Under the pieces are notes generated by a model, which saw only the letters and a list, made by a program, of their open reading frames with translations, was not told the origin of the DNA and ran no database searches. Positions 796 through 27,481 of a stretch of 30,584 bases of DNA are shown here, piece after piece. Made by a program: the position numbers and the translations under genes. Where the stretch lies: the IMG/VR virus record IMGVR_UViG_3300025030_000332, positions 1 to 30,584 of that record; one strand, written 5' to 3'. Every line of letters begins with the position of its first letter. Within the stretch, counting starts at the first letter, position 1. The DNA comes from a virus.

Positions 796-1062
796 TCATT
801 CATCAGTTAAAAATGTTTTTGTTTTGTAAAACCTGTCACCACCTTCGTTGCCAGGGTCGTACTCCCAGATCGCGTAGGTGTGTTTACGGCTAATGGAAAG
901 CCCGCTTTCAAGCGTATCCCCAGCCAAATCTCCGTGATCCCTTGCGGCTTGTTCCAAGAAATCCCTGGCGTCTTTCCAGGCTACGAATCCGACAATCTCG
1001 TCTATATTGCCTATATTTACATTTGCTATGTCCGTTATAACTGCCAAATATTTCAAATTCAT
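796..1062 (-). CDS. Small hypothetical protein translationally coupled to the retron RT
   Basis: This 88-residue ORF begins MNLKYLAVITDIANVNIGNIDEIVGFVAW and ends in a charged tail. Its ATG overlaps the TGA of the reverse transcriptase as ATGA, and AAGGAGG lies 8-9 bases upstream. Translation is therefore probably coupled to the RT. The composition is acidic with several aromatic residues (AIWEYDPGNEGGDRFYKTKTF). I see no membrane segment, nuclease motif or zinc ligands, and I do not recognise the family. Retrons normally carry an effector gene adjacent to the RT, so this protein is the closest positional candidate. That role is inference from position only, and a small phage accessory protein is an equally valid reading. 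Confidence 0.6.
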   Translation of the reverse strand: MNLKYLAVITDIANVNIGNIDEIVGFVAWKDARDFLEQAARDHGDLAGDTLESGLSISRKHTYAIWEYDPGNEGGDRFYKTKTFLTDE

Positions 1063-1985
1063 AGTACTATCCTCCTTAACTTTCTTGTTGATTTGTTACT
1101 GATATTTGTAGCAGATGCGATTTTCCTGGCTTTCGCCTTCGTTTCTAAATATACCCTCGCTACATGCGCGAGCTTCCTTGCGGCATCCTTGTGTGTTTTT
1201 ACTGGCAGCAGCATCCCGCGGTACTTCTTCGCCTCCCCTGGATGACACAGTGCTATATGCGATATCATTCCCAATAAGCTTTCCATTTGTTTGTGTGTGA
1301 TAAGCCAGCCATTAGACGCTCTGTGCACCAACGCTCGTACCCTGTGTCTGTATTTCTTGGGGACGGTAGGTCGCCCTGAATTAATATTCAGCCCGGTAAT
1401 TTCTTGTCTCTGCCCACATCCCATAAGCCTTGTTTTGTCTGTGTTGAGTTCCAGCCCCATCGATCTTAGTTTTGGCGCTATTATAGGTAAAACGTTCTCC
1501 ATTGAGTGTGAATTGCTCGAAAAAGTCAGGTCGTCTGCATACCGCGTGTACTCAATATCGTCTGAAACAAGCTTCTTCAGGAGATTGGGTATCTGTGTGT
1601 CGAATTCCCTCATACAATAATTCGACAGAAAAGGGCTTGTTGGCGCTCCCTGCGGGAGCGACCCGTTATAAAGCACCAGTGTTGGGTTGAAATTAATTCC
1701 AACATCCCAAGCCGTTTGCGCGACTCTTCTGATTGTTGTTCCCGTTATACACGGAAAGAAATCTCGTATATCGAGATTCAGTATCCATTTTTTCCCCAGA
1801 TGCATTTTTGCGTTTGTAAGGATATTGCGTTTCCTGGTAAAGCCATGAGCGCGCTTCGATATCCAGAGTTTGTTTTGCATATCTCTTAGGAATTCCCTTT
1901 GTTTCTTTTTTAATTCTTCGTCGGGGGCAGTTATCGCCCTGACACCACCAGATTTTTTTGGAATAGTAAATGTGTAATAACCCAT
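1059..1985 (-). CDS. Retron-type reverse transcriptase
   Basis: The 308-residue protein has the reverse transcriptase core in order: motif A LDIRDFF (residues 71-77), QGAPTSP (112-118), YTRYADDLTFS with the catalytic YADD (149-152), and a downstream ITGLNIN (196-202). The retron hallmark NAxxH (NAKMH, 58-62) lies just before motif A, and ITGL takes the place of the retron VTG motif. The RT should copy the msd part of its own upstream RNA into branched msDNA in the cytoplasm. Length is at the short end for retron RTs, and no C-terminal effector domain, maturase X domain or endonuclease is fused. The start ATG has GGGAGG 4 bases upstream. The upstream 700 bases hold msr-msd-like RNA structures, as expected for a retron. 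It lacks the Avd gene and template/variable repeats of a diversity-generating retroelement. Confidence 0.93.
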   Translation of the reverse strand: MGYYTFTIPKKSGGVRAITAPDEELKKKQREFLRDMQNKLWISKRAHGFTRKRNILTNAKMHLGKKWILNLDIRDFFPCITGTTIRRVAQTAWDVGINFNPTLVLYNGSLPQGAPTSPFLSNYCMREFDTQIPNLLKKLVSDDIEYTRYADDLTFSSNSHSMENVLPIIAPKLRSMGLELNTDKTRLMGCGQRQEITGLNINSGRPTVPKKYRHRVRALVHRASNGWLITHKQMESLLGMISHIALCHPGEAKKYRGMLLPVKTHKDAARKLAHVARVYLETKAKARKIASATNISNKSTRKLRRIVL

Positions 1986-2064: not shown

Positions 2065-2126
2065 AATTACCTTTTGTGTAATCGAAACACCTACATGGTG
2101 GTGTTTTCTTTACCCAAAAGGTAATT
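2065..2126 (-). ncRNA. Long hairpin between retron RNA and RT start
   Basis: Arms 2065-2076 and 2115-2126 are a perfect 12-base inverted repeat. Nested inside is a second stem (GAAACACC at 2084-2091 against GGTGTTTTC at 2100-2108, with one bulged base). On the - strand this hairpin sits 14 bases beyond the 3' end of the proximal retron RNA and about 80 bases before the RT start. It could protect or define the 3' end of the retron RNA, or modulate RT translation. No U-run follows it, so a simple terminator is unlikely. Confidence 0.5.
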
Positions 2127-2139
2127 GCCGTGTTACTAC

Positions 2140-2318
2140 CCCCCCCCAGTATCTTTTTCTCTCTTCCATGGAGTGAGGCGCGATGTTGTGTTGAGCGCCG
2201 AACGGAGATGGGAAGAGAGAAAACGTGATTCTGGATGTAGTAGTCATTACAAATTGCCAGGCGAAACGCCTGGCAACGGTTCACAAATTAACTGTGTCCG
2301 CAGTCATACTGGGGGGGG
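2140..2318 (-). ncRNA. Retron msr-msd RNA, RT-proximal copy
   Basis: Read on the - strand, the element starts with a1 (2318-2306, eight C then AGTAT) and ends with a2 (2152-2140, ATACT then G-run). Together they form a 13-base perfect inverted repeat. The msr part carries two hairpins: 2296-2282 (5 bp, loop TTAAT) and 2276-2254 (10 bp, loop TTT), the TTT loop being typical of msr stems. The msd part is one long hairpin with 13 perfect pairs (2223-2211 with 2167-2155), a GGCGC/GCGCC inner stem and an A/C-rich apex around ACACAAC. A G directly after a1 (2305) is the best candidate branch guanosine. The order a1-msr-msd-a2-RT is the canonical retron layout. A weak TATAAA (2338-2333) lies just upstream as a possible promoter -10. 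Confidence 0.85.
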
Positions 2319-2326
2319 ATTTCTTC

Positions 2327-2355
2327 TTGACATTTATACGAAATTATGGTTTTAT
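2327..2355 (+). promoter_or_regulatory. Possible rightward promoter before the middle structured RNA
   Basis: TTGACA at 2327-2332 is followed after 17 bases by TTTTAT (2350-2355). Initiation would then fall near 2361, the first base of the closed structured element. The same segment on the - strand holds TATAAA (2338-2333), which could serve the RT-proximal retron RNA. The -10 matches are poor on both strands, so only the TTGACA match is strong. Confidence 0.3.
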
Positions 2356-2360
2356 GCTGA

Positions 2361-2500
2361 AGGAGCCGTGGGTGCCTATAAGGAATTGAAATTGAAACTT
2401 GATATTGAGACGTATAAATCCTGGAGACGTCCAGGTCGGTCCTGAAAGGCATCAGGGTAACGTCATTGAGCGGGTAGCTGACCCGACACTCACGGCTCCT
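2361..2500. ncRNA. Structured RNA element between the two retron RNAs, orientation unresolved
   Basis: Ends 2361-2370 and 2491-2500 form a perfect 10-base inverted repeat (AGGAGCCGTG with CACGGCTCCT). Inside are three compact hairpins: 2420-2435 (6 bp, CCTGGA/TCCAGG), 2440-2455 (CCTGA/TCAGG) and 2470-2485 (CGGGT/ACCCG). The pairing GACGT (2409-2413) with ACGTC (2460-2464) can enclose the first two hairpins. No protein-coding frame is convincing here. On the + strand a TTGACA box lies about 30 bases upstream, so an RNA could start right at the closing stem. On the - strand the element would be transcribed with the retron. It does not align with the two flanking msr-msd copies, and I do not recognise it as a known riboswitch or ribozyme. 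Confidence 0.55.
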
Positions 2501-2525
2501 AGAAATTCCATCCAACACTTACCAA

Positions 2526-2674
2526 CAGGAAGCTTTTCTTACTGTTTACCAAGGAGCGGAGGATTGTTGTGTATCCGTAGCGACGCCTAAACAGTAAGAA
2601 GTGGGGGTGTGGTATTACATTTGATATGTCAGGCGAAGCGCCCGGCAGGATTATGATAATCCAGTTCCTTCCTG
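2526..2674 (-). ncRNA. Second, RT-distal msr-msd-like RNA
   Basis: Read on the - strand, CAGGAAG (2674-2668) and CTTCCTG (2532-2526) form a 7-base a1/a2 pair. Two hairpins follow as in the proximal copy: 2662-2648 (GGATTA/TAATCC) and 2646-2628 (GCCGGGCG-CTT-CGCCTGAC). A GTAAT-containing linker leads to a long hairpin with 13 perfect pairs (2600-2588 with 2548-2536). The apex ACACAACA and the following CTCCxCTCCxTGG are shared with the proximal copy, but the long stem has a different sequence that still pairs perfectly. This is what two diverged functional copies of one RNA family should look like. The shorter a1/a2 could mean lower activity or decay. Confidence 0.72.
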
Positions 2675-2704
2675 AAATGTGATCTTAGAGATTGTTGTTC
2701 ACTT

Positions 2705-2908
2705 TCATGCCAAAACAAAACTCCTTTTGTGCTTACGCATAAACAGACGGCCAGGGCCGTTGCCTTCTGCATCCCTGCTTGGATATAATAATGTATTGTC
2801 TTCTAAAACCAGTACGAGACATGGCGCATCCCATCCTTCTAGGTCTAGCTCTTTGTCTGTCAAATACCGGGCTTCCTTAATTTTTTTACCAACTATTTCT
2901 CCTAACAT
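2705..2908 (-). CDS. Small conserved hypothetical protein (67 aa)
   Basis: The ATG follows AGGAGGATTT. The protein begins MLGEIVGKKIKEARYLTDKELDLEGWD and contains LVLEDNTLLYPSRDAEGNGPGRLF. The pattern TLLYPSRDxEGNGPGxLF matches from memory a small protein family seen in phages, bacteria and archaea with no assigned function. It looks like a compact beta-rich domain with no membrane segment and no cysteines. It is the last gene before the structured RNA region, so its transcript may read into the retron RNAs. Confidence 0.7.
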   Translation of the reverse strand: MLGEIVGKKIKEARYLTDKELDLEGWDAPCLVLVLEDNTLLYPSRDAEGNGPGRLFMRKHKRSFVLA

Positions 2909-2959
2909 AAATCCTCCTGTTGTCGTGTAACTGTGTACATTACTTGTCCTCCCTGGAAT

Positions 2960-2991
2960 ACCGCCTAAACCGTTTAAACGGTTTAGGCGGT
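2960..2991. repeat. Perfect 32-base palindrome centred on GTTTAAAC
   Basis: Bases 2960-2975 are the exact reverse complement of 2976-2991. The palindrome contains the stop codon of the leftward gene 2983-3714. No U-run follows on either strand, which argues against an ordinary intrinsic terminator. The right half plus flank (2972-2993) matches 19 of 22 bases of 12565-12586, which also sits at the 3' end of a leftward gene. It could be a binding site for a dimeric protein, or a cruciform/transcript-end structure. Confidence 0.85.
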
Positions 2992-3714
2992 TCGGTTTGT
3001 TTCAAAACGGTTTCCCTGCCCGAAAGGTGGGGCGAAAACATCTGTATTCCTTTCCGTGTTTACTGACGACTTGCTCGACTGTTCAATCCCAACGCCAAAA
3101 AGCAGTGCGCAATTTACCAGCGCATCTTGTGCGGAGCCGGTTCGCGCCCCGGCCATCCCATCCGATTGCTCGCCGTCGACGCATTGGCAGTACCCCACAT
3201 TCTCCTTCCATGCCTTGACTCCCCCAATCACAACCTCCAGCCTCCCCGCACACGTAAATGAGTCGCCATTATCCACCGGCTCCTCGTGCGAGAACGACCA
3301 AAATATGGCGCTGAACGCCTCGTTCAGCCTTTTTACAATCTCCTCAAACTTGACCTTCTTACCTCTATATGGGTCACTGATAAGTTGGTTATCGCTGAAA
3401 TGCCTTAACAGTATCCCTTCTACCTCCTTTACTGATTTACCTTCAGCTTCCTGCGGGCGGTTTTTTACAGCGTTTATGTGTATACAGCGGTATCCGTTGC
3501 CGCGCTGGTTGAAATCTGCACAGGTACATTGTCCGTTTGTTCCATCCCAAAATACCCTGAAAGCCATTTTTTTATCTTCGGATTCTACGAAATAATGATG
3601 TTGCTTGCCGGGTATAGCGCACACCGCAGCCGATTGGGTTATGGGTGGTTGTGTCGCTATTTGTTGTGTATTACCCGGTGGTCTAACTAATGGCATATCT
3701 CTTACGTCTGGCAT
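2983..3714 (-). CDS. SWIM zinc finger protein with Rad52/Rad22-like annealing domain
   Basis: Residues 50-85 hold a SWIM-type CxC...CxH finger: C63, C65, C77 and H79 in QCTCADFNQRGNGYRCIHI. Residues about 113-212 resemble the Rad52/Rad22 single-strand annealing family: a KFEEIVKRLNEAF start, WSFSHEE and CAGRLEVVIGGVKAWKENVGYCQC, ending in SAQDALVNCALLFGVG, which corresponds to the family's A-x-K-R-A-A-x-x-F-G-x-G end. Such phage proteins anneal complementary single strands during recombination and replication. The 3' end is low-complexity and polar. The start ATG has GGAGG at 5 bases. It lies directly upstream (in genome order, downstream in transcription) of the sliding clamp gene, consistent with a replication-recombination module. 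The Rad52 assignment rests on pattern and would be settled by a profile search. Confidence 0.72.
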   Translation of the reverse strand: MPDVRDMPLVRPPGNTQQIATQPPITQSAAVCAIPGKQHHYFVESEDKKMAFRVFWDGTNGQCTCADFNQRGNGYRCIHINAVKNRPQEAEGKSVKEVEGILLRHFSDNQLISDPYRGKKVKFEEIVKRLNEAFSAIFWSFSHEEPVDNGDSFTCAGRLEVVIGGVKAWKENVGYCQCVDGEQSDGMAGARTGSAQDALVNCALLFGVGIEQSSKSSVNTERNTDVFAPPFGQGNRFETNRTA

Positions 3715-10325: not shown

Positions 10326-10607
10326 TTAATTAGTAAGCCGTTCTGCTGTCTTCCGCTTACCGTTCGTGTCTTCGTCTTTTGATTTATGGAAAATGCCTAA
10401 GAAATTGCATTCTGGACTCTTTCCGGTTACCTTGGTGTATTCAAGTAGCGCTCGAAATCCCGCTATTTTTGTTCTGGCGATGGATACTATTGCCTTAGCC
10501 TCCGAAACGGTAATTTCCCCCGCGATTAACTTAGAAGTTTCGCGGGACAATACATTGTCCAGCTCTTCAAAGCTGTCCATGGTGTGTTGTTCTTTGTGTT
10601 TTATCAT
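10326..10607 (-). CDS. Small helical hypothetical protein (93 aa)
   Basis: AAAAGGAG lies 4 bases before the ATG, which overlaps the TGA of the sigma-like gene upstream. The protein (MIKHKEQHTMDSFEELDNVLSRETSKLIAGEITVSEAKAIVSIARTKIAGF) is predicted to be mostly helical with a basic C-terminus. The pattern LIAGEITVSEAKAI resembles small phage proteins thought to bind nucleic acid or proteins, but no family is certain. Coupling to the sigma-4-like gene suggests a linked regulatory role; that is inference. Confidence 0.6.
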   Translation of the reverse strand: MIKHKEQHTMDSFEELDNVLSRETSKLIAGEITVSEAKAIVSIARTKIAGFRALLEYTKVTGKSPECNFLGIFHKSKDEDTNGKRKTAERLTN

Positions 10608-11296
10608 GATTCTCCTTTTCGCTCTATAAAGCGACTTAGTATTAATTCTTTTCGTTTTAATATAATCAGCTTGTGTGGTATGTCTTGTTTGGTCAGGTCG
10701 GTACCTGCGATTATCTTCTCCGCGACGAAAGCATCACCAAGGTTTTCGCTGCGCTGTTTGTGGTATTGTTGTTGATATACTTTCCATGCTTCGGCATTTT
10801 TCTGCTGCCATCTGGCAGATCTCCAGTGGTGGTATGCCTTGTCTTCGTTATATTTACGTTTGTTTTCCAGCAACTTTTCTAGATACCACTGGTGTTTCTG
10901 TTGCCGTGCTCTTTCCTTTCGCTGTGACGGAGTCATAGTGACATCCTGGAAGATATATTGGCGTTTAGCCCTGACTGGCTGTATCCTTTTTGATATATCG
11001 GGCATGTTGGGGGAATCGTAATCTTCGGCAAGGAAGCTGAGTATCTCCCGGAGTTTATTCAACCCCTTGGACTTCAACTTTCGTACATGCTCATATGAAC
11101 AACCCCGCTCCCTTCCTATTACCCTGTAAGATTTTGAGTCCCACAAATACTCCACAATAAAGAGCCTTTGTTTTGACGGCAATCTCTTTAGTCCCTGTGC
11201 GAGTATAACCCGGAGTTCGTTATTGATGGCACAATCGAGGGCGTCGGGATAGCGAGACTCTGCGTCCTCGCGAAGCGTTTCCGTTTCTATTTTCAC
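10604..11296 (-). CDS. Sigma-70 region-4-like regulator with basic C-terminal extension
   Basis: The start GTG (11296-11294) has GGGAGG 10 bases upstream, inside the end of the preceding gene. Residues about 25-85 (LRVILAQGLKRLPSKQRLFIVEYLWDSKSYRVIGRERGCSYEHVRKLKSKGLNKLREIL) match a sigma-70 region 4 helix-turn-helix, which reads the -35 box. Region 2 is missing, so it is not a complete sigma factor. The remaining 140 residues are strongly basic, with a Gln/Lys/Trp-rich helical segment (QQKHQWYLEKLLENKRKYNEDKAYHHWRSARWQQKN). The recognition helix CSYEHVRKLK resembles CSYEQVRKLK of the phage sigma at 26654-27481. It could be an anti- or co-activator, or a DNA-binding late regulator. Confidence 0.72.
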   Translation of the reverse strand: MKIETETLREDAESRYPDALDCAINNELRVILAQGLKRLPSKQRLFIVEYLWDSKSYRVIGRERGCSYEHVRKLKSKGLNKLREILSFLAEDYDSPNMPDISKRIQPVRAKRQYIFQDVTMTPSQRKERARQQKHQWYLEKLLENKRKYNEDKAYHHWRSARWQQKNAEAWKVYQQQYHKQRSENLGDAFVAEKIIAGTDLTKQDIPHKLIILKRKELILSRFIERKGES

Positions 11297-19149: not shown

Positions 19150-22100
19150 ATGCCTGATAATACAACCTGGGAAAGCATCAAAACTAATCTCGCAGACGGG
19201 TTGAGGCAAGTCTTCCCTATCATCGGTAAAGAACGAGACCTGCACCTCGAAGACATCGATATTAAAGACAATAAAGATGCCGGCGACTACGCCTCCCAAA
19301 AACAAGCCATCCTGAATAAGACTAATTGGACGGTACCTGTATACGGCAACCTGGTTCTAAAAGACAAGGAAGGGAAGGCGCTGGAGAAATCCAAGACACG
19401 TCTGCTATCTATCCCGAAGCTCACCAATAGAAACACCCTTATTTATAACGGAAACGAATACAGTATCGCAAACCAAATACGGCTCAAGCCCGGGGTATAC
19501 ACAAACACCGGCGACGACGGAGTAACGCGCTCACAGTTCAATGTGGGCAAGGGGGCCAATTTCTCCCTCTGGCAGGAACCAACTAAAGGCATTTTTTATA
19601 TCCAATTCAATCAGGCGTCCATCCCGTTGTACCCCATCCTGAAAGAGATTGGTGTGAGCGACGAAGATCTCGCCTCCCGATGGGGCAAGGAGGTACTGGA
19701 TAGCAATAAAAACATTAGCGATGTAAAATACAAAAATGCCGTAATAAAAGTCTACAACAAATTGACTTACAACAAAGACGAAGAAAAGGAAACGCCATAC
19801 GACACCGCTAGGTCGGAACTGAAGAATGTGCTGAGTGCGGCCACGCTCGACCCGCTTGTTACCAAGGCAACATTGAAAAAAGAATACAGCTCTGTCACGC
19901 CCGACGCAATAATGGACGCGTCGAGGAAGATTCTCAGGATAAACAGAGGCGAGGAGCAGCCCGATGACCGCGAATCTCTTATCTATAAATCTGTTCATGG
20001 CGCTGACGATTTTATACGCGAAAGCATCACAAAGGGTGCAAGGCCGGTATTGTGGAAAGTGAAAAACAGGCTCAACAGTATGTATGGAAAGCAGGACGGC
20101 GCTATTATAAAAAATGTGTTCGCGCCTGGCACGTTATCATCTCCCATTTACACAAATATCAACATTTCCCCACTAACCAGCGTTGCACAGGACGCCAATC
20201 CGCTTAAATTTATCGAGGCCTCTAATAGGGTTACAGCATTCGGCCCCGGTGGTATAGGGATCACGTTCGCAGTGCCGGAGGCGGTCAGGAATGTCCATCC
20301 TTCGCACATCGGATTTATCGATACCGTTAGGACGCAGGAGTCTGATAAGGCCGGAATAGATTTACAATTAGCAATAGGGACAAAAAAGACAGGCAACACC
20401 TTAACGATTAAATTACTTGACCGCGACGGGAAAAAAGTGCGCCAAACCCTGCAAGAGCTTCAAGGGAAAACGCTGGCATTGCCAGGACAACAGAACAACG
20501 GTAAGATCGAAGCCGTTAGGGACGGAAAGCTGGTTACCGTAAGCCCGTCGGATGTTGATTATACAATCTATGGCCCCAACAGGATGTTCTCCGACTCTAC
20601 TGTCCTTGTCCCGTTTTTGAGCAATAACGCCGGGGCGCGTGCCAACCTCGGGGGAAAGATGGGCGCACAGGCGCTTCCCTTAAAATACCGGGAAAAGCCC
20701 CTGGTGCAAACGGCAGCCAACAAAGAAGGGCTGACCAACGAGGCTATTATCGGGCGTAAAATATCGGCGCAGAGTCCGGTTGACGGCAGGATAACCAGGG
20801 TAACCGATAGTGAAATTGAGATTGCCGACGGTTCCGGCAAGAAGCATAGCGTTAGTCTCTATGATAACTACATTGTAGGGAATAAGACATACCTTAATCA
20901 CGAGCCGGTGGTAAAAGAAGGAGATTCTGTAAAGGCCGGGCAACTCCTGGCTGACAGCAATTATAGTAAAGATGGCATCCTTGCTATGGGTACGAATCTA
21001 AGGACAATCTATGTCCCATACAAGGGGTTGAGTGTTAGCGGGGATACTATGGTTCTATGGGTGGGCGAAGATGGTATTGGACACTTTACTTCTATACGTG
21101 AAGTCCCTCCCGTGAAAGGTATAAGGGCAAACGCTTTAAAAACAGAGGATCTCGTAGTCAAACTACATGACATACATTCTTTTATTGGGCACTACGCCGA
21201 TGAGGAGATGGTGGAAGTGCTTACGATGGACGGTACTGCTGTTAAGGCTACCAAATCGCATAGCTTCATTTCCATCGACGATGACGGTGTGCTGCACGAA
21301 ATTGCTCCAGGAGATATGATTGCAGGTAAAACCCTCCTGCCAGTGGCCCGACCGCAACTGCCTTTAAGGGATTCGGTACAAACAATCACATTGAAGACTT
21401 GGACGAAAAACGGCAGAGAAATATCACTGCCGGTATCCGAAGATGTTGGATTTTTGTTTGGGATGTATGTGTCGGAAGGAAGTGTTCTGGGCGGGAAAAA
21501 ACCAAAAGGAATATGTATTGCTGTAACCGAGGAAGAATTATTAACCAAGGTCGTACAAATATTAGATTCCTTGAGTATTCCATCTGCATATTACAAACGT
21601 GTACGTGAAGATGGGGCTGTTAGTGGCGCCCTGCATTTCCACAGCGCCTCCCTTACCAGATTTATAGTTGAGAATTGTGGGCGTGGCGCAGCAAAGAAAA
21701 GAATCCCCCAGATTTTATGGAGTTCGAATCCCGCATTTGTTAATGGCTTTATCTCCGGATACTGGAGTGGTGACGGGACCGTTGGGAAGCTCGTGGCGGC
21801 AACAACAGTATCTAAAGAACTAGCAGAGGGTATTTGTTTCCTCCTGGCCTCTATTGGAGTTAGGGCTACGTATCGTACTTACAAGTCACTGGGGATAGGG
21901 TTCCGGCGCCGGCCAAAGGCGCCAATGAAGGATCAACATCTTATATCGGTTTTTTCCCACAGCCTGTCAATGTTTCCCGATATCTTTCTTAGTCGAAAGA
22001 ACGAGGCGCTGTTGGAGCTAAAGGCCAAATTCAGATCTTGCGGTAGGGATAGGGTTCCGGTGCCGGCCAAAGACAAGAAAGCTGTTGTGGCAGCGCTAGG

Positions 22101-25100
22101 GAAGCGTGCTATTTCTAACAACGGATATATGAGTAGGGGGTTACTACTTGAAGCGTTAGAAAAAGGTGTGGATGTATCGCCCAGACTCATTCAGCTAATA
22201 CATAGCCATGTTTGGTGGGATGTGGTAAAAAGTGTCAAAGAGATAGCGTTTGAGGATTATGTTTACGATTTAGACATGAGACCCATAGGGAACTTCATGG
22301 TAGGGCATGGACTCATTGTTCACAACACCCACGAGGATGCCATTGTCGTCTCTGATTCTGCGGCGCAGAAATTCACGTCGCAGCACATGTCGCGCTTCGA
22401 CCTGCCCGTTGACGACACTACCGTACTTAACAAGAATAAATGGCTCGCCTATTTCGACAATAAAGTAACTCCGGCGCAGACTGATAAGCTCGATGCTAGC
22501 GGCATTGTAAAACCGGGAATGGAGGTTGGCAGCGGTGATTATCTGATAGCCGCCATGAGGGAGAATGTGATTAACCCTGAAGATGCGATGCTTGGTAAAC
22601 TCTCTAAAAAACTGGTAAAGCCATATCGGGATGTTTCTGTGCTTTGGGAGAAGGCAACTGCCGGACGCGTTGTGGACGTGGTGGTGAATCCGAAGTCGGT
22701 GACGATAACCGTTCGCACGGATGCGCCGCTGGTTATAGGAGATAAAATTACTAATCGCGAGGGAGGTAAGGGCGTGGTGGCCTCAATCTTGCCGGATGCC
22801 GAAATGCCGAAAGATAAGGATGGGAATCCTTATGAGGTCATTCTTAACCCTGCCACTGTGATGTCTCGTATGAACATAGGACAATTATTAGAAACTGCCG
22901 TTTCTAAGACAGCCACTCCCGACAAACCATACGTAGCGCCTCTGTTCCCTATCGGGAAAGAAGGTAATATTTCTAAAGAAGTAAAAAAGATACTTGATAA
23001 ACACGGCGTTAAAGAGACGGATGAAGTATACGACGCGTCCGGTAAGCGGGTGGGAGATATATTTGCCGGCAAGCAATACTTTTACAAGCTCGGAAAAACT
23101 ACCGACACAAACTATTCAGCCAGGGCGTTCCAGGGCAAATACGATGCCGATATGATGCCTGTGCGCGGCGGAGAAGAAGGGGCAAAAGGTATTGGTCTGC
23201 TCGATATATACGCCCTGTTGTCCCATAATGCGCGCAATATATTACGAGAGTCCGTTACGAGTAAGGCAGAATATAACCCTGAATATTTCAAAGCGATACA
23301 GATGGGCATGCCGTTGCCGCCTCCCAAGCCAACGTTCGCTTTTGAAAAATTTGTCAACTACCTTAAGGGTGCCGGGGTAAACGTCGAAAAAACCGGCGAC
23401 CGGTTAAAACTCTTGCCGTTCATAGATAAAGATGTCCTCCGGCTGTCATCCGGGAAGATAGATAATGCTAAGATGCTGAGGACAAAGGACCTGTCAGAAG
23501 AACAGGGGGGATTGTTTGATTTCAACAAGACCGGCGGAAAGACAGGGAATAAGTGGTCTCACATAGAACTGTCGGAACCGGTATTGAATCCACTCTTCGC
23601 CGAGCCTGCCAGGCGGCTACTTGGGTTGAGGGAGAAAGATTTGATCAACCTCCAAAACAACTCCGGCGGGAAAGTAGTTAAAGAAATGCTCTCTAAGATC
23701 GACGTAAACAAACGGCTTGAAGATCTGACAGGCGCCGTGGGAAATTTAAGCGGCGTCAAGAAAGACGATGCCGTTAAACAGATTAAATATCTGAAGGTTT
23801 TAAAGGAATCCAATATTACCCCCGCGGAAGCGTACACCATACAACACCTGCCAGTAATACCCCCCATCTTCCGCCCTATATATCCAACAGGAGATAATGG
23901 CAACATGAGGGTGGGCGATATAAATAATTTGTACAAACAGGTATTGTTGGTAAGTGGAGGGCTAGGCGATAAGACACTCGACGCCATGCCGGAGGAAGAA
24001 AAGAAATCGCTGAGACGCGAACTCTTTGGTTCTGTGAAGGCCTTACAGGGATTAGATAAACCTGTTTCAGGGAAAGATCTCAAGGGATTTATTGCAGCAA
24101 TCAAAGGCGATGTCCCCAAGGGGGGTTTCTTTCAATCTAAGCTGCTTAAGAAACAACAAGACATTGCCGGTAGGGCAACGATTGGGGGCGATCCATCACT
24201 GGGACTCGACGAGATTAAAATGCCCGAAGATATGGCTTGGACGCTATACGGGCCATTTGTTATCGGCGAACTGGTGAAGTCTGGCATGAAGATTATTGAC
24301 GCAGAGACTGAACTAAACAATAGAACAGACAAGGCGAAGTCGGTCTTGCTTATGATTATGAAGGATCGTCCTGTGCTATTGAACCGCGCGCCTACATTAC
24401 ACAAGTTTAACATCATGGCATTTAAACCGTCCATGCATCAGGGCAAGACGCTTCTGATACCGCCAATGGTAATGAAGCCTTACGGGGCAGATGTCGACGG
24501 AGATAGTATGCAAGTGCATGTGCCTGTTGGAGACATGGCTCGCCGTGAGGCGTTAAACAAAATGCTTCCCTCGCAAAACTTGTTTTCCATACTGGACAAG
24601 TCGCCACATTACGCGCCGTCAAATGAGGCGGTTTTTGGACTGTACCTTGGAACGAAGGAGAGAAAAGGTTCTTCGTTAAAAACCTATCAAAACACAGAGG
24701 ATGTCCTCAAGGATATAAACTCGAACCGCATACAGGTGACAGACCCGATACTCCTACAAAATATCAGAACTACGGCAGGAAACGTTAAGGTGAACACGGT
24801 GCTGCCGCCCGAGTTTAGAGATTACAACCGTATTATTACGAAGAAGACGCTGTCTGAGATATTAAAGCAGGTAGGACAAAAATATCCATCCGACTATGCG
24901 CGTATAGCAAAAGAGCTGAAAGACCTGGGCGATACATGGGCATTCAGCCCGGAAGCATCCTTATCATTTAAAGATTTTGAAGTGCCGGAGGTGCGCGACA
25001 GGATTCTATCTGATGCCGGTCGGATACTTGCAGGCAGGAAAATGAAAAAGGATGTAGACGTTATAGACGTATATACCAGCGCCCAGGATAAGTTGATCCC

Positions 25101-26601
25101 TGCCTTGATGGAGGAAGGAAAACAGAAGGAAAATAAGTTTTACGAATGGGCAGTGTCAGGGTCAAGGGGTAATCCTGTCCAATTCTCGTCTATTTGGGGC
25201 GCTCCTGTGCTGGTCACCGACCTTCAGGACAGGGTCATTCCGAGTCCGATAAAACGCAACTTCATAGAGGGCTTGCCGCCCGGTGAATACTTTACAAGCC
25301 TGTACGGCACGCGCAAGGGTATTACTGCAACAAAGACTGAGGTGCAGTTGCCAGGGGCGCTTGCTAAAGAATTGACGGCGTCTAATGTAGACCTGATTGT
25401 AACAATGCTTGATTGTGGAACGAGGAAAGGAATCGATCTTGATATATCAGACAGGGATGCCCTCGATAGATTGGCGGCTGTGGATATTCAGGGTTCATCT
25501 GGCGATATATTAATCAGAAGAAATACAATTATTACTTCCAGGGTTATCGATTCTCTGCGAAAGGGAGGTGTCCAGACGATAAAGGTCAGATCGGTTACTA
25601 CTTGTGAAGCCCCGAAGGGTGTATGCGCATCGTGCGCCGGCGTTCAGGAGGATGGTAAGCTCCCTGGTATAGGTGAGAATATCGGAGTAAAGCACTCCAT
25701 GTCCCTCGCCGAACCATTGACGCAAATGGCATTGAGCACGAAACACACCGCCGGTATTGGTTCTAAGGGAACGGGGATATCGGCAATAAAAACTATTCTC
25801 GAAATGCCGGCATCGGTGTACACAAAAGAAATTCTGGCGCAACAAGACGGCGTGGTTAGCGAAGTAAAGAAACTTCCAACGGGCGGACACATCGTCACGA
25901 TAACTGCAAATCCGAAATCTATAGAGGATTATTTGATACCTCCTGGTCATAGACTACTAAAAACTACCGGTTCTATCTCGCAGGGCGAACCCCTTACGGA
26001 TGGGACCCCAAACATTCAGGACTATGTTGCAATAAAAGGTATTGAAGCAGGACGTAACAAATTAACGGAAACGATCAGGGATTTCTACCACAGTGGCGGA
26101 AGACGCATTGACAGGAGGGTGCCTGAAACGGTTGCCCGCGGAATACTGAATTATGCAAAGGTGGTTTCCCCGGGTGATTTCGATTTGGTCGAAGGCGATG
26201 TAGTGGAATACAACCAGGCAGCACCCATGCAAACCAGGAAGGTTGTTTCGTTACCGCCTAGCCAGACGGTTGGATACAGACTCGCAGATTCGCATGGTAG
26301 GTTTTCCAAAGACACAAGAATAGATCGTGATATTGCCAAGTCATTGATCCGTTCTTCTAAATTTAAGAAGATCGGTGTTTATAAAGAGCCTGCTAAGCTG
26401 GAACCGGTAGCCTTTGGCATTAACAAAATACCTGTTATGAAGAAGGACTGGTTATCGAGGCTTGGGTTTAGGTATCTGTCCAACACTATTACTGAAGGGG
26501 CAGCAACCGGCATGGAATCTAATATCCATAGTATGAATCCGATACCTGCGCTGGCCTATGGCGCCGAGTTTGGGCAAGGAAAGGAATTTGACGTCTATTA
26601 A
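19150..26601 (+). CDS. Single-chain beta-beta' DNA-directed RNA polymerase with intein
   Basis: The 2483-residue ORF carries the beta subunit first: NGNEYSIANQIRLKPGVY, ANPLKFIEASNRVTAFGPGGIG, NVHPSHIGFIDTVRTQESD, VPFLSNNAGARANLGGKMGAQ, and REGGKGVVASILPDAEMP...NPATVMSRMNIGQ. The beta' part starts near residue 1430: GGLFDF...SHIELSEPVLNPLF, DRPVLLNRAPTLHKFNIMAFKP, and the catalytic GADVDGDSMQVHVP (Asp 1781, 1783, 1785). Later come SPIKRNFIEGLPPGEYFTSLYGTRKGI (trigger loop region) and a zinc site C2089, C2152, C2159, C2162. The N-terminal beta' zinc domain is absent. Residues 628-1059 are an intein, so the spliced enzyme is about 2051 residues. It should synthesise phage RNA, and sits between portal and sigma genes. 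AAAGGAGG precedes the ATG by 14 bases. Confidence 0.96.
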   Translation: MPDNTTWESIKTNLADGLRQVFPIIGKERDLHLEDIDIKDNKDAGDYASQKQAILNKTNWTVPVYGNLVLKDKEGKALEKSKTRLLSIPKLTNRNTLIYNGNEYSIANQIRLKPGVYTNTGDDGVTRSQFNVGKGANFSLWQEPTKGIFYIQFNQASIPLYPILKEIGVSDEDLASRWGKEVLDSNKNISDVKYKNAVIKVYNKLTYNKDEEKETPYDTARSELKNVLSAATLDPLVTKATLKKEYSSVTPDAIMDASRKILRINRGEEQPDDRESLIYKSVHGADDFIRESITKGARPVLWKVKNRLNSMYGKQDGAIIKNVFAPGTLSSPIYTNINISPLTSVAQDANPLKFIEASNRVTAFGPGGIGITFAVPEAVRNVHPSHIGFIDTVRTQESDKAGIDLQLAIGTKKTGNTLTIKLLDRDGKKVRQTLQELQGKTLALPGQQNNGKIEAVRDGKLVTVSPSDVDYTIYGPNRMFSDSTVLVPFLSNNAGARANLGGKMGAQALPLKYREKPLVQTAANKEGLTNEAIIGRKISAQSPVDGRITRVTDSEIEIADGSGKKHSVSLYDNYIVGNKTYLNHEPVVKEGDSVKAGQLLADSNYSKDGILAMGTNLRTIYVPYKGLSVSGDTMVLWVGEDGIGHFTSIREVPPVKGIRANALKTEDLVVKLHDIHSFIGHYADEEMVEVLTMDGTAVKATKSHSFISIDDDGVLHEIAPGDMIAGKTLLPVARPQLPLRDSVQTITLKTWTKNGREISLPVSEDVGFLFGMYVSEGSVLGGKKPKGICIAVTEEELLTKVVQILDSLSIPSAYYKRVREDGAVSGALHFHSASLTRFIVENCGRGAAKKRIPQILWSSNPAFVNGFISGYWSGDGTVGKLVAATTVSKELAEGICFLLASIGVRATYRTYKSLGIGFRRRPKAPMKDQHLISVFSHSLSMFPDIFLSRKNEALLELKAKFRSCGRDRVPVPAKDKKAVVAALGKRAISNNGYMSRGLLLEALEKGVDVSPRLIQLIHSHVWWDVVKSVKEIAFEDYVYDLDMRPIGNFMVGHGLIVHNTHEDAIVVSDSAAQKFTSQHMSRFDLPVDDTTVLNKNKWLAYFDNKVTPAQTDKLDASGIVKPGMEVGSGDYLIAAMRENVINPEDAMLGKLSKKLVKPYRDVSVLWEKATAGRVVDVVVNPKSVTITVRTDAPLVIGDKITNREGGKGVVASILPDAEMPKDKDGNPYEVILNPATVMSRMNIGQLLETAVSKTATPDKPYVAPLFPIGKEGNISKEVKKILDKHGVKETDEVYDASGKRVGDIFAGKQYFYKLGKTTDTNYSARAFQGKYDADMMPVRGGEEGAKGIGLLDIYALLSHNARNILRESVTSKAEYNPEYFKAIQMGMPLPPPKPTFAFEKFVNYLKGAGVNVEKTGDRLKLLPFIDKDVLRLSSGKIDNAKMLRTKDLSEEQGGLFDFNKTGGKTGNKWSHIELSEPVLNPLFAEPARRLLGLREKDLINLQNNSGGKVVKEMLSKIDVNKRLEDLTGAVGNLSGVKKDDAVKQIKYLKVLKESNITPAEAYTIQHLPVIPPIFRPIYPTGDNGNMRVGDINNLYKQVLLVSGGLGDKTLDAMPEEEKKSLRRELFGSVKALQGLDKPVSGKDLKGFIAAIKGDVPKGGFFQSKLLKKQQDIAGRATIGGDPSLGLDEIKMPEDMAWTLYGPFVIGELVKSGMKIIDAETELNNRTDKAKSVLLMIMKDRPVLLNRAPTLHKFNIMAFKPSMHQGKTLLIPPMVMKPYGADVDGDSMQVHVPVGDMARREALNKMLPSQNLFSILDKSPHYAPSNEAVFGLYLGTKERKGSSLKTYQNTEDVLKDINSNRIQVTDPILLQNIRTTAGNVKVNTVLPPEFRDYNRIITKKTLSEILKQVGQKYPSDYARIAKELKDLGDTWAFSPEASLSFKDFEVPEVRDRILSDAGRILAGRKMKKDVDVIDVYTSAQDKLIPALMEEGKQKENKFYEWAVSGSRGNPVQFSSIWGAPVLVTDLQDRVIPSPIKRNFIEGLPPGEYFTSLYGTRKGITATKTEVQLPGALAKELTASNVDLIVTMLDCGTRKGIDLDISDRDALDRLAAVDIQGSSGDILIRRNTIITSRVIDSLRKGGVQTIKVRSVTTCEAPKGVCASCAGVQEDGKLPGIGENIGVKHSMSLAEPLTQMALSTKHTAGIGSKGTGISAIKTILEMPASVYTKEILAQQDGVVSEVKKLPTGGHIVTITANPKSIEDYLIPPGHRLLKTTGSISQGEPLTDGTPNIQDYVAIKGIEAGRNKLTETIRDFYHSGGRRIDRRVPETVARGILNYAKVVSPGDFDLVEGDVVEYNQAAPMQTRKVVSLPPSQTVGYRLADSHGRFSKDTRIDRDIAKSLIRSSKFKKIGVYKEPAKLEPVAFGINKIPVMKKDWLSRLGFRYLSNTITEGAATGMESNIHSMNPIPALAYGAEFGQGKEFDVY
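21031..22326 (+). mobile_element. Intein with LAGLIDADG endonuclease, inside the beta region
   Basis: The intein runs 432 residues (628-1059 of the ORF). It starts SVSGDTMVLWV (block A with Ser1, not Cys1), has a TKSHSF block B, two LAGLIDADG helices (LFGMYVSEGS and FISGYWSGDGT) and ends YDLDMRPIGNFMVGHGLIVHN with the terminal His-Asn. The first residue after it is Thr. Removing it joins YVPYKGL to THEDAIVVSD, which aligns exactly with the invariant beta motif WEGYNYEDAI. Insertion in such an essential site is typical of inteins, because imprecise loss is lethal. Confidence 0.95.
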
Positions 26602-26653: not shown

Positions 26654-27481
26654 ATGTCAAAGAAGGCGTTGGATCCCAGCATTGTTTCGTTTTTTGGCGA
26701 GTTATCAAAACCCGAATATGATCCCATAAGAGACAGAGATACAGAAGCAGAGATCATAAAAAACTATCAAAGCAGAGACGATAAGGAGTTATTTCAAACG
26801 CTTATCAAAAAGAACCTGAGATATGTCGCCTCTATATCCAGAAAATACATGGACGGAGACGATCATGATATCGATATTTTTCACGCAGGCGTGCTTGGCT
26901 TAATAACAGCCATTCATAAGTACGACATAAACTCCCATTGCAAACTGATAACTTACGCCAGGGATTGGATTAAATACGAGATTGATAAATACAGGAGAGG
27001 CAAGTCAATCGTAGGATTAACGCATTATATGTGTTGGCATTTGCGGAAAATTGATGCCGCGATAGACGACCTAATGAAGGTGGGGATATCGTACGCAGAC
27101 GAAGCTGTCTCGTCCATTACCGGACTTCCCAGAAAAATGATTAATGCCGTGCAAAAAGCAAGGAAGACACAGTGTGTAATCGACTACCCATTAGACTGCA
27201 AAGAGGCCAATAGCGTTGGGTATTTCAGCCATAGAGACGAAGAATCTGAACCTATCGACTTTATGGTTAAAGGCGAGGATAGCGAGCGTCTGCACAATGC
27301 GATCAACGAATTACCCTCCGATGAGGCGCTCGTAATTCAAAAGCTGTATTTCGACGACGACAGCACTCGTGAATCATATAGAAGTGTAGCCAAAAAACTA
27401 GGCTGTTCGTATGAGCAGGTACGAAAGCTTAAAGTAAGCGCATTTGACAAAATAGCCCTTGCCTTCGCATCGAATAATTGA
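26654..27481 (+). CDS. Phage sigma-70 family factor
   Basis: AGGAG lies 9 bases before the ATG, and the gene starts 52 bases after the RNA polymerase. Residues about 42-115 match sigma region 2: DKELFQTLIKKNLRYVASISRKYM, DIFHAGVLGLITAIHKYD and KLITYARDWIKYEIDKY, the -10-binding and core-binding part. The C-terminal region 4 (INELPSDEALVIQKLYFDDDSTRESYRSVAKKLGCSYEQVRKLKVSAFDKIALAF) is a -35-reading helix-turn-helix. Region 1.1 is absent. It likely gives promoter specificity to the adjacent phage polymerase, or redirects the host core; the adjacency favours the first. Confidence 0.9.
   Translation: MSKKALDPSIVSFFGELSKPEYDPIRDRDTEAEIIKNYQSRDDKELFQTLIKKNLRYVASISRKYMDGDDHDIDIFHAGVLGLITAIHKYDINSHCKLITYARDWIKYEIDKYRRGKSIVGLTHYMCWHLRKIDAAIDDLMKVGISYADEAVSSITGLPRKMINAVQKARKTQCVIDYPLDCKEANSVGYFSHRDEESEPIDFMVKGEDSERLHNAINELPSDEALVIQKLYFDDDSTRESYRSVAKKLGCSYEQVRKLKVSAFDKIALAFASNN

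Follow-up and report, generated by a model that had tools for sequence, protein, structure and literature searches.

The window examined here is the whole of IMG/VR record IMGVR_UViG_3300025030_000332, a stretch of 30,584 bases that probably represents part of a larger phage genome. It carries, on the minus strand, a gene for a retron-type reverse transcriptase (RT; 1059-1985) and, directly upstream of that gene, a series of RNA elements (2140-2674) that includes two diverged, msr-msd-like non-coding RNAs (ncRNAs). Retrons are usually treated as systems of one RT, one ncRNA, and one multicopy single-stranded DNA (msDNA). From the anatomy of this locus, we consider it probable (roughly 0.72) that a phage-borne retron is present whose single RT is provided with two template RNAs. 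An initial annotation, made from the letters of the same DNA, had read the locus as a phage retron RT accompanied by two diverged msr-msd-like RNAs of the same fold, and the analysis described below supports that interpretation.

Several lines of evidence lead us to class the enzyme as a retron RT. Its sequence contains the motifs NAKMH (NAxxH, region X), QGAPTSP, YADD, and ITG (VTG-like), and it matches the Pfam family RVT_1 (7.6e-22). Among PADLOC profiles the best match is to RT_XIII (1e-68), with III-A at 3.7e-59, whereas among NCBIfam profiles the retron St85 RT scores 1.4e-61 versus 5.5e-18 for the group II intron RT (maturase). The solved structures nearest to the protein are the RTs of retrons Ec67 and Ec86. 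By profile, the enzyme does not fit the class of diversity-generating retroelements (DGRs) or that of group II introns, with no separate search made for a DGR template/variable repeat pair. The short N-terminus of the enzyme resembles that of RTs from other large phages (L011, L022, L096, and L107). All relatives found are at most ~37% identical, and the protein used as a single query gave no match among viral contigs, such that alignment-based queries were needed.

The two RNAs, here called copy A and copy B, lie in one orientation upstream of the RT gene (Table 1), and an inverted-repeat search places their arms where the initial annotation had put them. Each includes two msr hairpins, a TGTAAT linker, and one long msd hairpin, and the second msr hairpin (GCCGGGCG-CTT-CGCCTGAC in copy A and TGCCAGGCG-TTT-CGCCTGGCA in copy B) constitutes a 21-nt direct repeat that is 86% identical between units 372 nt apart. 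The score of this pair of similar hairpins was unmatched in 100 shuffles of the upstream kilobase (0/100). The copies also have the apex motif ACACAACA in common, and the copy B apex 12-mer TCAACACAACAT recurs in the ncRNA region of the relative L022. The msd stems themselves have diverged. When TTCTTACTGTTTA of copy A is compared with TTTTCTCTCTTCC of copy B, the 5′ arms are identical at 7 of 13 positions, and all six differences, as read from the sequence, are compensated on the other arm, which leaves 13 perfect pairs in each stem as had been claimed. When the 735-nt region was subjected to 200 dinucleotide shuffles and searched for perfect stems with loops of 20-60 nt, the longest perfect stem encountered was 10 bp. 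The inverted-repeat search returned both msd stems as perfect arms, together with perfect arms at 2140-2152/2306-2318 within the a1/a2 pairing of copy B. This latter pairing was equaled in none of 200 shuffles. The proposal that each RNA has a1/a2 ends is clearly upheld for copy B and weakly for copy A, as detailed further below. Folding z-scores are -8.7 for copy B (0/400 shuffles) and -5.6 when its a1/a2 is removed, and they are -2.6 for copy A (5/400) and -3.1 without its a1/a2 (1/400). Taken together, the RT motifs, an upstream msr-msd-like RNA with a1/a2 (clear in copy B and not significant in copy A), and msr hairpins followed by a long msd hairpin identify the element as a predicted retron by RT and anatomy.

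Two further structures, which the initial annotation had not mentioned, were observed in the same region on the minus strand. Element C (2361-2500) is a structured RNA between the copies that has 14-nt arms with 93% complementarity and has no long msd hairpin, and element D (2066-2125) forms a long hairpin that separates copy B from the start of the RT gene. Their folding z-scores are -4.6 and -3.8, respectively, and neither has a family match.

Tandem ncRNAs are also present among bacterial type XIII retrons. Self-alignment of upstream regions revealed ~200-nt tandem repeats in six loci (L184, L168, L127, L163, L143, and L154), and those tested with WGR_XIII, SWIM_XIII, and RT_XIII proved to be bona fide type XIII retrons: WGR_XIII and SWIM_XIII genes are found in L154 and L163 (E-values of 1e-107 to 1e-238), and in L154, L184, and L143 the RT genes tested score 1e-187 to 1e-201 against RT_XIII. 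A type XIII ncRNA model built from the modules of these loci recovers 35 modules in 27 bacterial loci, six of which have two or three modules. The 14 modules of the six tandem loci align over ~190 nt with both-side changes at 30 of 37 predicted pairs, and all 14 keep a TTGC/TAGC motif that is like the known retron priming site (PMC6868368). The 5′ core, apical part, and 3′ core are 81%, 84%, and 87% identical, respectively, between copies of the same locus, versus 39-40% for the arms of the msd stem. Where both copies are paired, 43 changes affect both sides of a pair versus 6 that affect one side, and a further 53 cells that are unpaired in one or both copies include stems that are misaligned or shorter as well as broken. 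The extreme cases are L168 and L127, whose 5′ cores are 98-99% identical beside stem arms that are 37-50% identical. Single-copy orthologues are likewise variable, as in Chitinophaga loci L139 and L145 (core 96%, stem arms 31-52%). Such stem divergence may be free drift under a pairing constraint, or it may reflect selection for diversity. Judged by their letters, the two copies in the window fit this pattern, with a common hairpin, linker, and apex and with different yet fully paired stems.

The resemblance to type XIII retrons extends to the best RT profile, to the position of the ncRNAs upstream of the RT on the same strand, and to tandem ncRNAs with variable paired msd stems. However, the RT in the window matches RT_XIII far more weakly than true members do and is without their N-terminal extension, no WGR or SWIM_XIII gene was found beside it, and the ncRNAs do not match the type XIII model. 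Because of the weak RT match, the absence of type XIII genes, and the unmatched ncRNA model, the element should not be classed as type XIII. Rather, it resembles a multi-template retron in a divergent phage form that is without an effector.

A search of the literature, which was partial and did not cover the Mestre 2020 type catalogue, found no description of a retron with two, tandem, multiple, or duplicated ncRNAs beside its RT, and the multi-template layout of bacterial type XIII retrons seems not to have been described before. A partial precedent is Retron-Nex1 (Ne160) of Nannocystis, which is reported to have several duplicated msr/msd sequences and no RT within a kilobase (PMC6868368). 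Duplicated msr/msd sequences occur in both elements, whereas in the window one RT directly follows two diverged templates. The view that two templates for one RT would be unusual is borne out, but the arrangement is not unique, given the type XIII loci and the phage contigs described next.

For 255 RT genes, the upstream 1000 nt were searched for repeated hairpins, defined as similar hairpin pairs at least 90 nt apart, with each region compared with 100 shuffles. Positives numbered 25 of 255 upstream regions, among which are some duplicates of one contig and two loci (L011 and L103) that contain palindromes rather than module repeats, and 8 of 249 downstream control regions, several of which are RT loci whose structured RNA may sit downstream. 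In L110, L112, and L045, the repeated hairpins are downstream, not upstream, of the RT, which hints at post-RT retron RNAs in other phage lineages. Besides the window, clear repeated-hairpin loci are L107, L060, L046, L083, and L055. By inspection, three modules precede one RT in L046, L083, and L060, and two do so in L107 and L055. Most of the repeated hairpins in these five loci are followed by a long msd-like hairpin. Those of L107, for example, are GTGCGCCG-TGAT-CGGCGCAG and GTGTGCTG-TGAT-CGGCACAG. The flanking a1/a2 pairings are significant for copy B of the window, module 2 of L107, and both L055 modules, and are not significant for several others. Among 11 within-locus hairpin pairs, a base pair is changed on both sides in 17 cases and on one side in 6, and in 4 cases one copy is unpaired; this count is biased towards structure because the hairpins were selected for being paired. 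A module scanner based on a1/a2 and folding overlooked genuine modules and reported spurious ones, and it was superseded by the repeated-hairpin test and self-alignment.

Phage-borne retron RTs are themselves not rare, contrary to what had been presumed in the initial annotation. An RT relative is encoded in 216 of 337 pattern-matched stretches of viral contigs, and the reviewed retronphage phiR73 carries Retron-Eco3 (Ec73), an ordinary retron on a P4-like temperate element, with other prophage retrons also known (PMC6868368). The window element is phage-borne like these, but it resides in a large phage with its own RNA polymerase and has two templates and no recognised effector. A retron-like RT is likewise present in Staphylococcus jumbo phages (S6, MarsHill, PALS_2, and DC4; PMC10638138), although that RT is ~28% identical to the one in the window and has a long N-terminal part. 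Upstream of the RT in phage S6 (L005), a stretch of ~1.28 kb without annotated genes (2114-3392) contains an exactly repeated 24-nt hairpin and other repeats, and it is possible that this stretch is a multi-template RNA of the Staphylococcus jumbo phages.

Table 1. Features of the retron locus and neighbouring genes in the window
Feature	Position	Strand	Description
Retron-type RT	1059-1985	-	308 aa, short N-terminus; by motifs, profiles, and nearest solved structures
ncRNA copy A (msr-msd-like)	2526-2674	-	a1/a2, two msr hairpins, TGTAAT linker, one msd hairpin
Copy A a1 (CAGGAAG) / a2 (CTTCCTG)	2668-2674 / 2526-2532	-	7 bp
Copy A msr hairpins	2648-2662 and 2628-2646	-	
Copy A msr hairpin 2	2628-2646	-	Direct repeat
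Copy A TGTAAT linker	2614-2619	-	
Copy A msd hairpin	2536-2600 (arms 2588-2600 / 2536-2548)	-	13-bp perfect stem
Copy A msd apex	2565-2572	-	ACACAACA
ncRNA copy B (msr-msd-like)	2138-2320	-	a1/a2, two msr hairpins, TGTAAT linker, one msd hairpin
Copy B a1/a2	2306-2320 / 2138-2152	-	15 pairs
Copy B msr hairpins	2276-2301 and 2255-2275	-	
Copy B msr hairpin 2	2255-2275	-	Direct repeat
Copy B TGTAAT linker	2246-2251	-	
Copy B msd hairpin	2155-2223 (arms 2211-2223 / 2155-2167)	-	13-bp perfect stem
Copy B msd apex	2183-2194	-	TCAACACAACAT
88-aa open reading frame	796-1062	-	Overlaps RT stop codon; no family and no phage relative in the collections searched
SWIM zinc-finger protein	2983-3714	-	243 aa; Pfam SWIM 1.8e-4

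The source contig belongs to a large phage whose RNA polymerase beta and beta′ parts are fused. A single open reading frame (ORF) of 2,483 amino acids (19150-26601) contains fused RNA polymerase beta and beta′ parts as well as an intein, in which a LAGLIDADG endonuclease is present. The contig also encodes a terminase (phrog_675, 5e-69), a sliding-clamp-like protein, and two sigma-factor-like proteins (26654-27481 and 10604-11296), one with sigma-70 regions 2 and 4 and the other with region 4 alone, which suggests that the phage polymerase has its own promoters. A 189-kb contig (G001) carries a related fused polymerase (35%; open frame of 2,052 amino acids) and terminase (34%), and it also holds L011, a retron-like RT that is short and is preceded by a structured region.

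Recognised retron effectors are not found next to the RT in the window by profile searches of the neighbours, and thus the effector expected beside the RT of a tripartite defence retron is not apparent; the 88-aa and SWIM ORFs remain candidates. WGR_XIII is likewise not found among the neighbours scanned. The 88-aa ORF is possibly coupled translationally to the RT and is the only candidate for a private partner of the enzyme. Beyond it, downstream, is a common phage protein whose function is not known (phrog_4657). Upstream of the ncRNAs are a 67-aa ORF and then the SWIM protein, which has no PADLOC match. Identification of this protein as SWIM_XIII was rejected because the similarity is confined to the zinc finger. 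Its C-terminal half appears Rad52-like by eye, and no profile confirms this.

A number of observations weigh against a retron with two templates. The 7-bp a1/a2 of copy A is at chance level, in that 66 of 200 shuffles equal or exceed it, and copy A is possibly inactive because this pairing is short and not significant; it can be extended by 6 bp (2675-2680/2515-2520) across a bulge. The retron priming guanosine at the a1 end is known from TAGC, CAGC, and similar contexts (PMC6868368). The base after a1 is G in both window copies, as it is in both L107 modules, but it lies outside the usual TAGC/CAGC context (TAT-GAC and AAG-GAA). A search of Rfam gave chance-level matches only, far below gathering scores, and the type XIII ncRNA model (R1) has no match in 1986-2720. 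The covariance search that had been suggested from both copies (model R2) likewise found just those two copies and no relative, although R2 represents mainly hairpin 2 because MAFFT misaligned the msd stems. With regard to related phages, the complete genomes of Arash and D181 have no RT match, and the contig of the nearest phage relative (terminase 86% identical) stops short of the retron site. Some RT is present in 5 of 15 contigs of the terminase group, and this figure, together with the lack of an RT match in Arash and D181, indicates that the retron element is accessory. In the four other terminase-group contigs with RTs (L304-L307), no obvious repeated modules lie upstream, and a retron of the window kind is not established there.

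Given the state of copy A, it is conceivable, although we regard it as unlikely, that only copy B is a working template and that copy A is a decaying duplicate or has another role, such as regulation. The chance-level a1/a2 of copy A and the gap between the folding z-scores (-2.6 versus -8.7) are consistent with this possibility. However, copy A retains both hairpins, the linker, the apex motif, and a perfect 13-bp msd stem of a kind absent from 200 shuffles, all of which decay would erode. Far less probable is that the structured region has no part in a retron and consists instead of terminators, an origin of replication, or a site of recombination beside an RT of another kind, such as the DGR or group II type. 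Elements C and D do reveal other structures in the region, and one of seven terminator-like sites is located just upstream of the RNAs, but the RT is of the retron type by all profiles, and the ordered series of a1, msr hairpins, msd, and a2 is seen again upstream of RTs related to this one and in true type XIII retrons. A role of the msd as a recombineering donor for the phage genome was rejected, as no match longer than 11 nt occurs within the 30.6-kb window.

If one RT does serve both RNAs, then by analogy with studied retrons the enzyme would recognise the parts common to both, namely the GGCG-NNN-CGCC msr hairpin and the TGTAAT linker. It would prime from the guanosine adjoining the a1/a2 duplex and copy each msd hairpin, yielding two msDNAs of ~70 nt with different, fully paired stems and a common apex loop (TGTTGTGT in DNA). 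As for what such products might accomplish, we tentatively favor phage counter-defence or competition, while recognizing that the odds are below even. The msDNAs might be decoys for host msDNA-binding sensors or effectors, in which case two stems would widen the bait range while a single RT serves both, or the locus might be a minimal exclusion system with a private partner such as the 88-aa protein. The counter-defence proposal is guesswork prompted by the lack of an effector and by the phage context, and it belongs with the weaknesses listed above. Nearly as probable is a rival reading in which the locus is an ordinary defence retron that the phage carries to exclude competing phages, with the coupled 88-aa protein or the SWIM protein as a not yet recognised effector. 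In bacterial type XIII retrons a SWIM protein is encoded directly upstream of the ncRNA, and the window also has one there, the 88-aa ORF overlaps the RT stop codon, and effector-bearing phage retrons exist (a Vibrio phage locus). However, the SWIM protein in the window shares only the zinc finger with SWIM_XIII and is unmatched in PADLOC, no SWIM gene was found in the L011 and L022 records, and L011, L022, and L096 have different kinds of gene next to the RT.

More speculative still is the notion that multi-template retrons are a distinct and widespread design, in which one RT generates a set of msDNAs with a conserved core and fast-changing paired stems. Such a set might provide bacteria with a wider trigger range, whereas large phages might have dropped the effector and retained a battery of decoys. 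If one RT serves two or three templates, then ncRNA-prediction pipelines limited to a single ncRNA for each RT overlook some of the templates. Natural copies would also reveal which RNA parts the RT needs, these being conserved, and which can be changed, such as the msd stem, and this bears on phage sensing by msDNA and on retron engineering. The divergence of stems in L168 and L127 (37-50% identity beside 98-99% identical 5′ cores) raises the question of drift under pairing versus selection for diversity, and a large-phage version without an effector allows the idea of msDNA counter-defence by phages to be tested directly.
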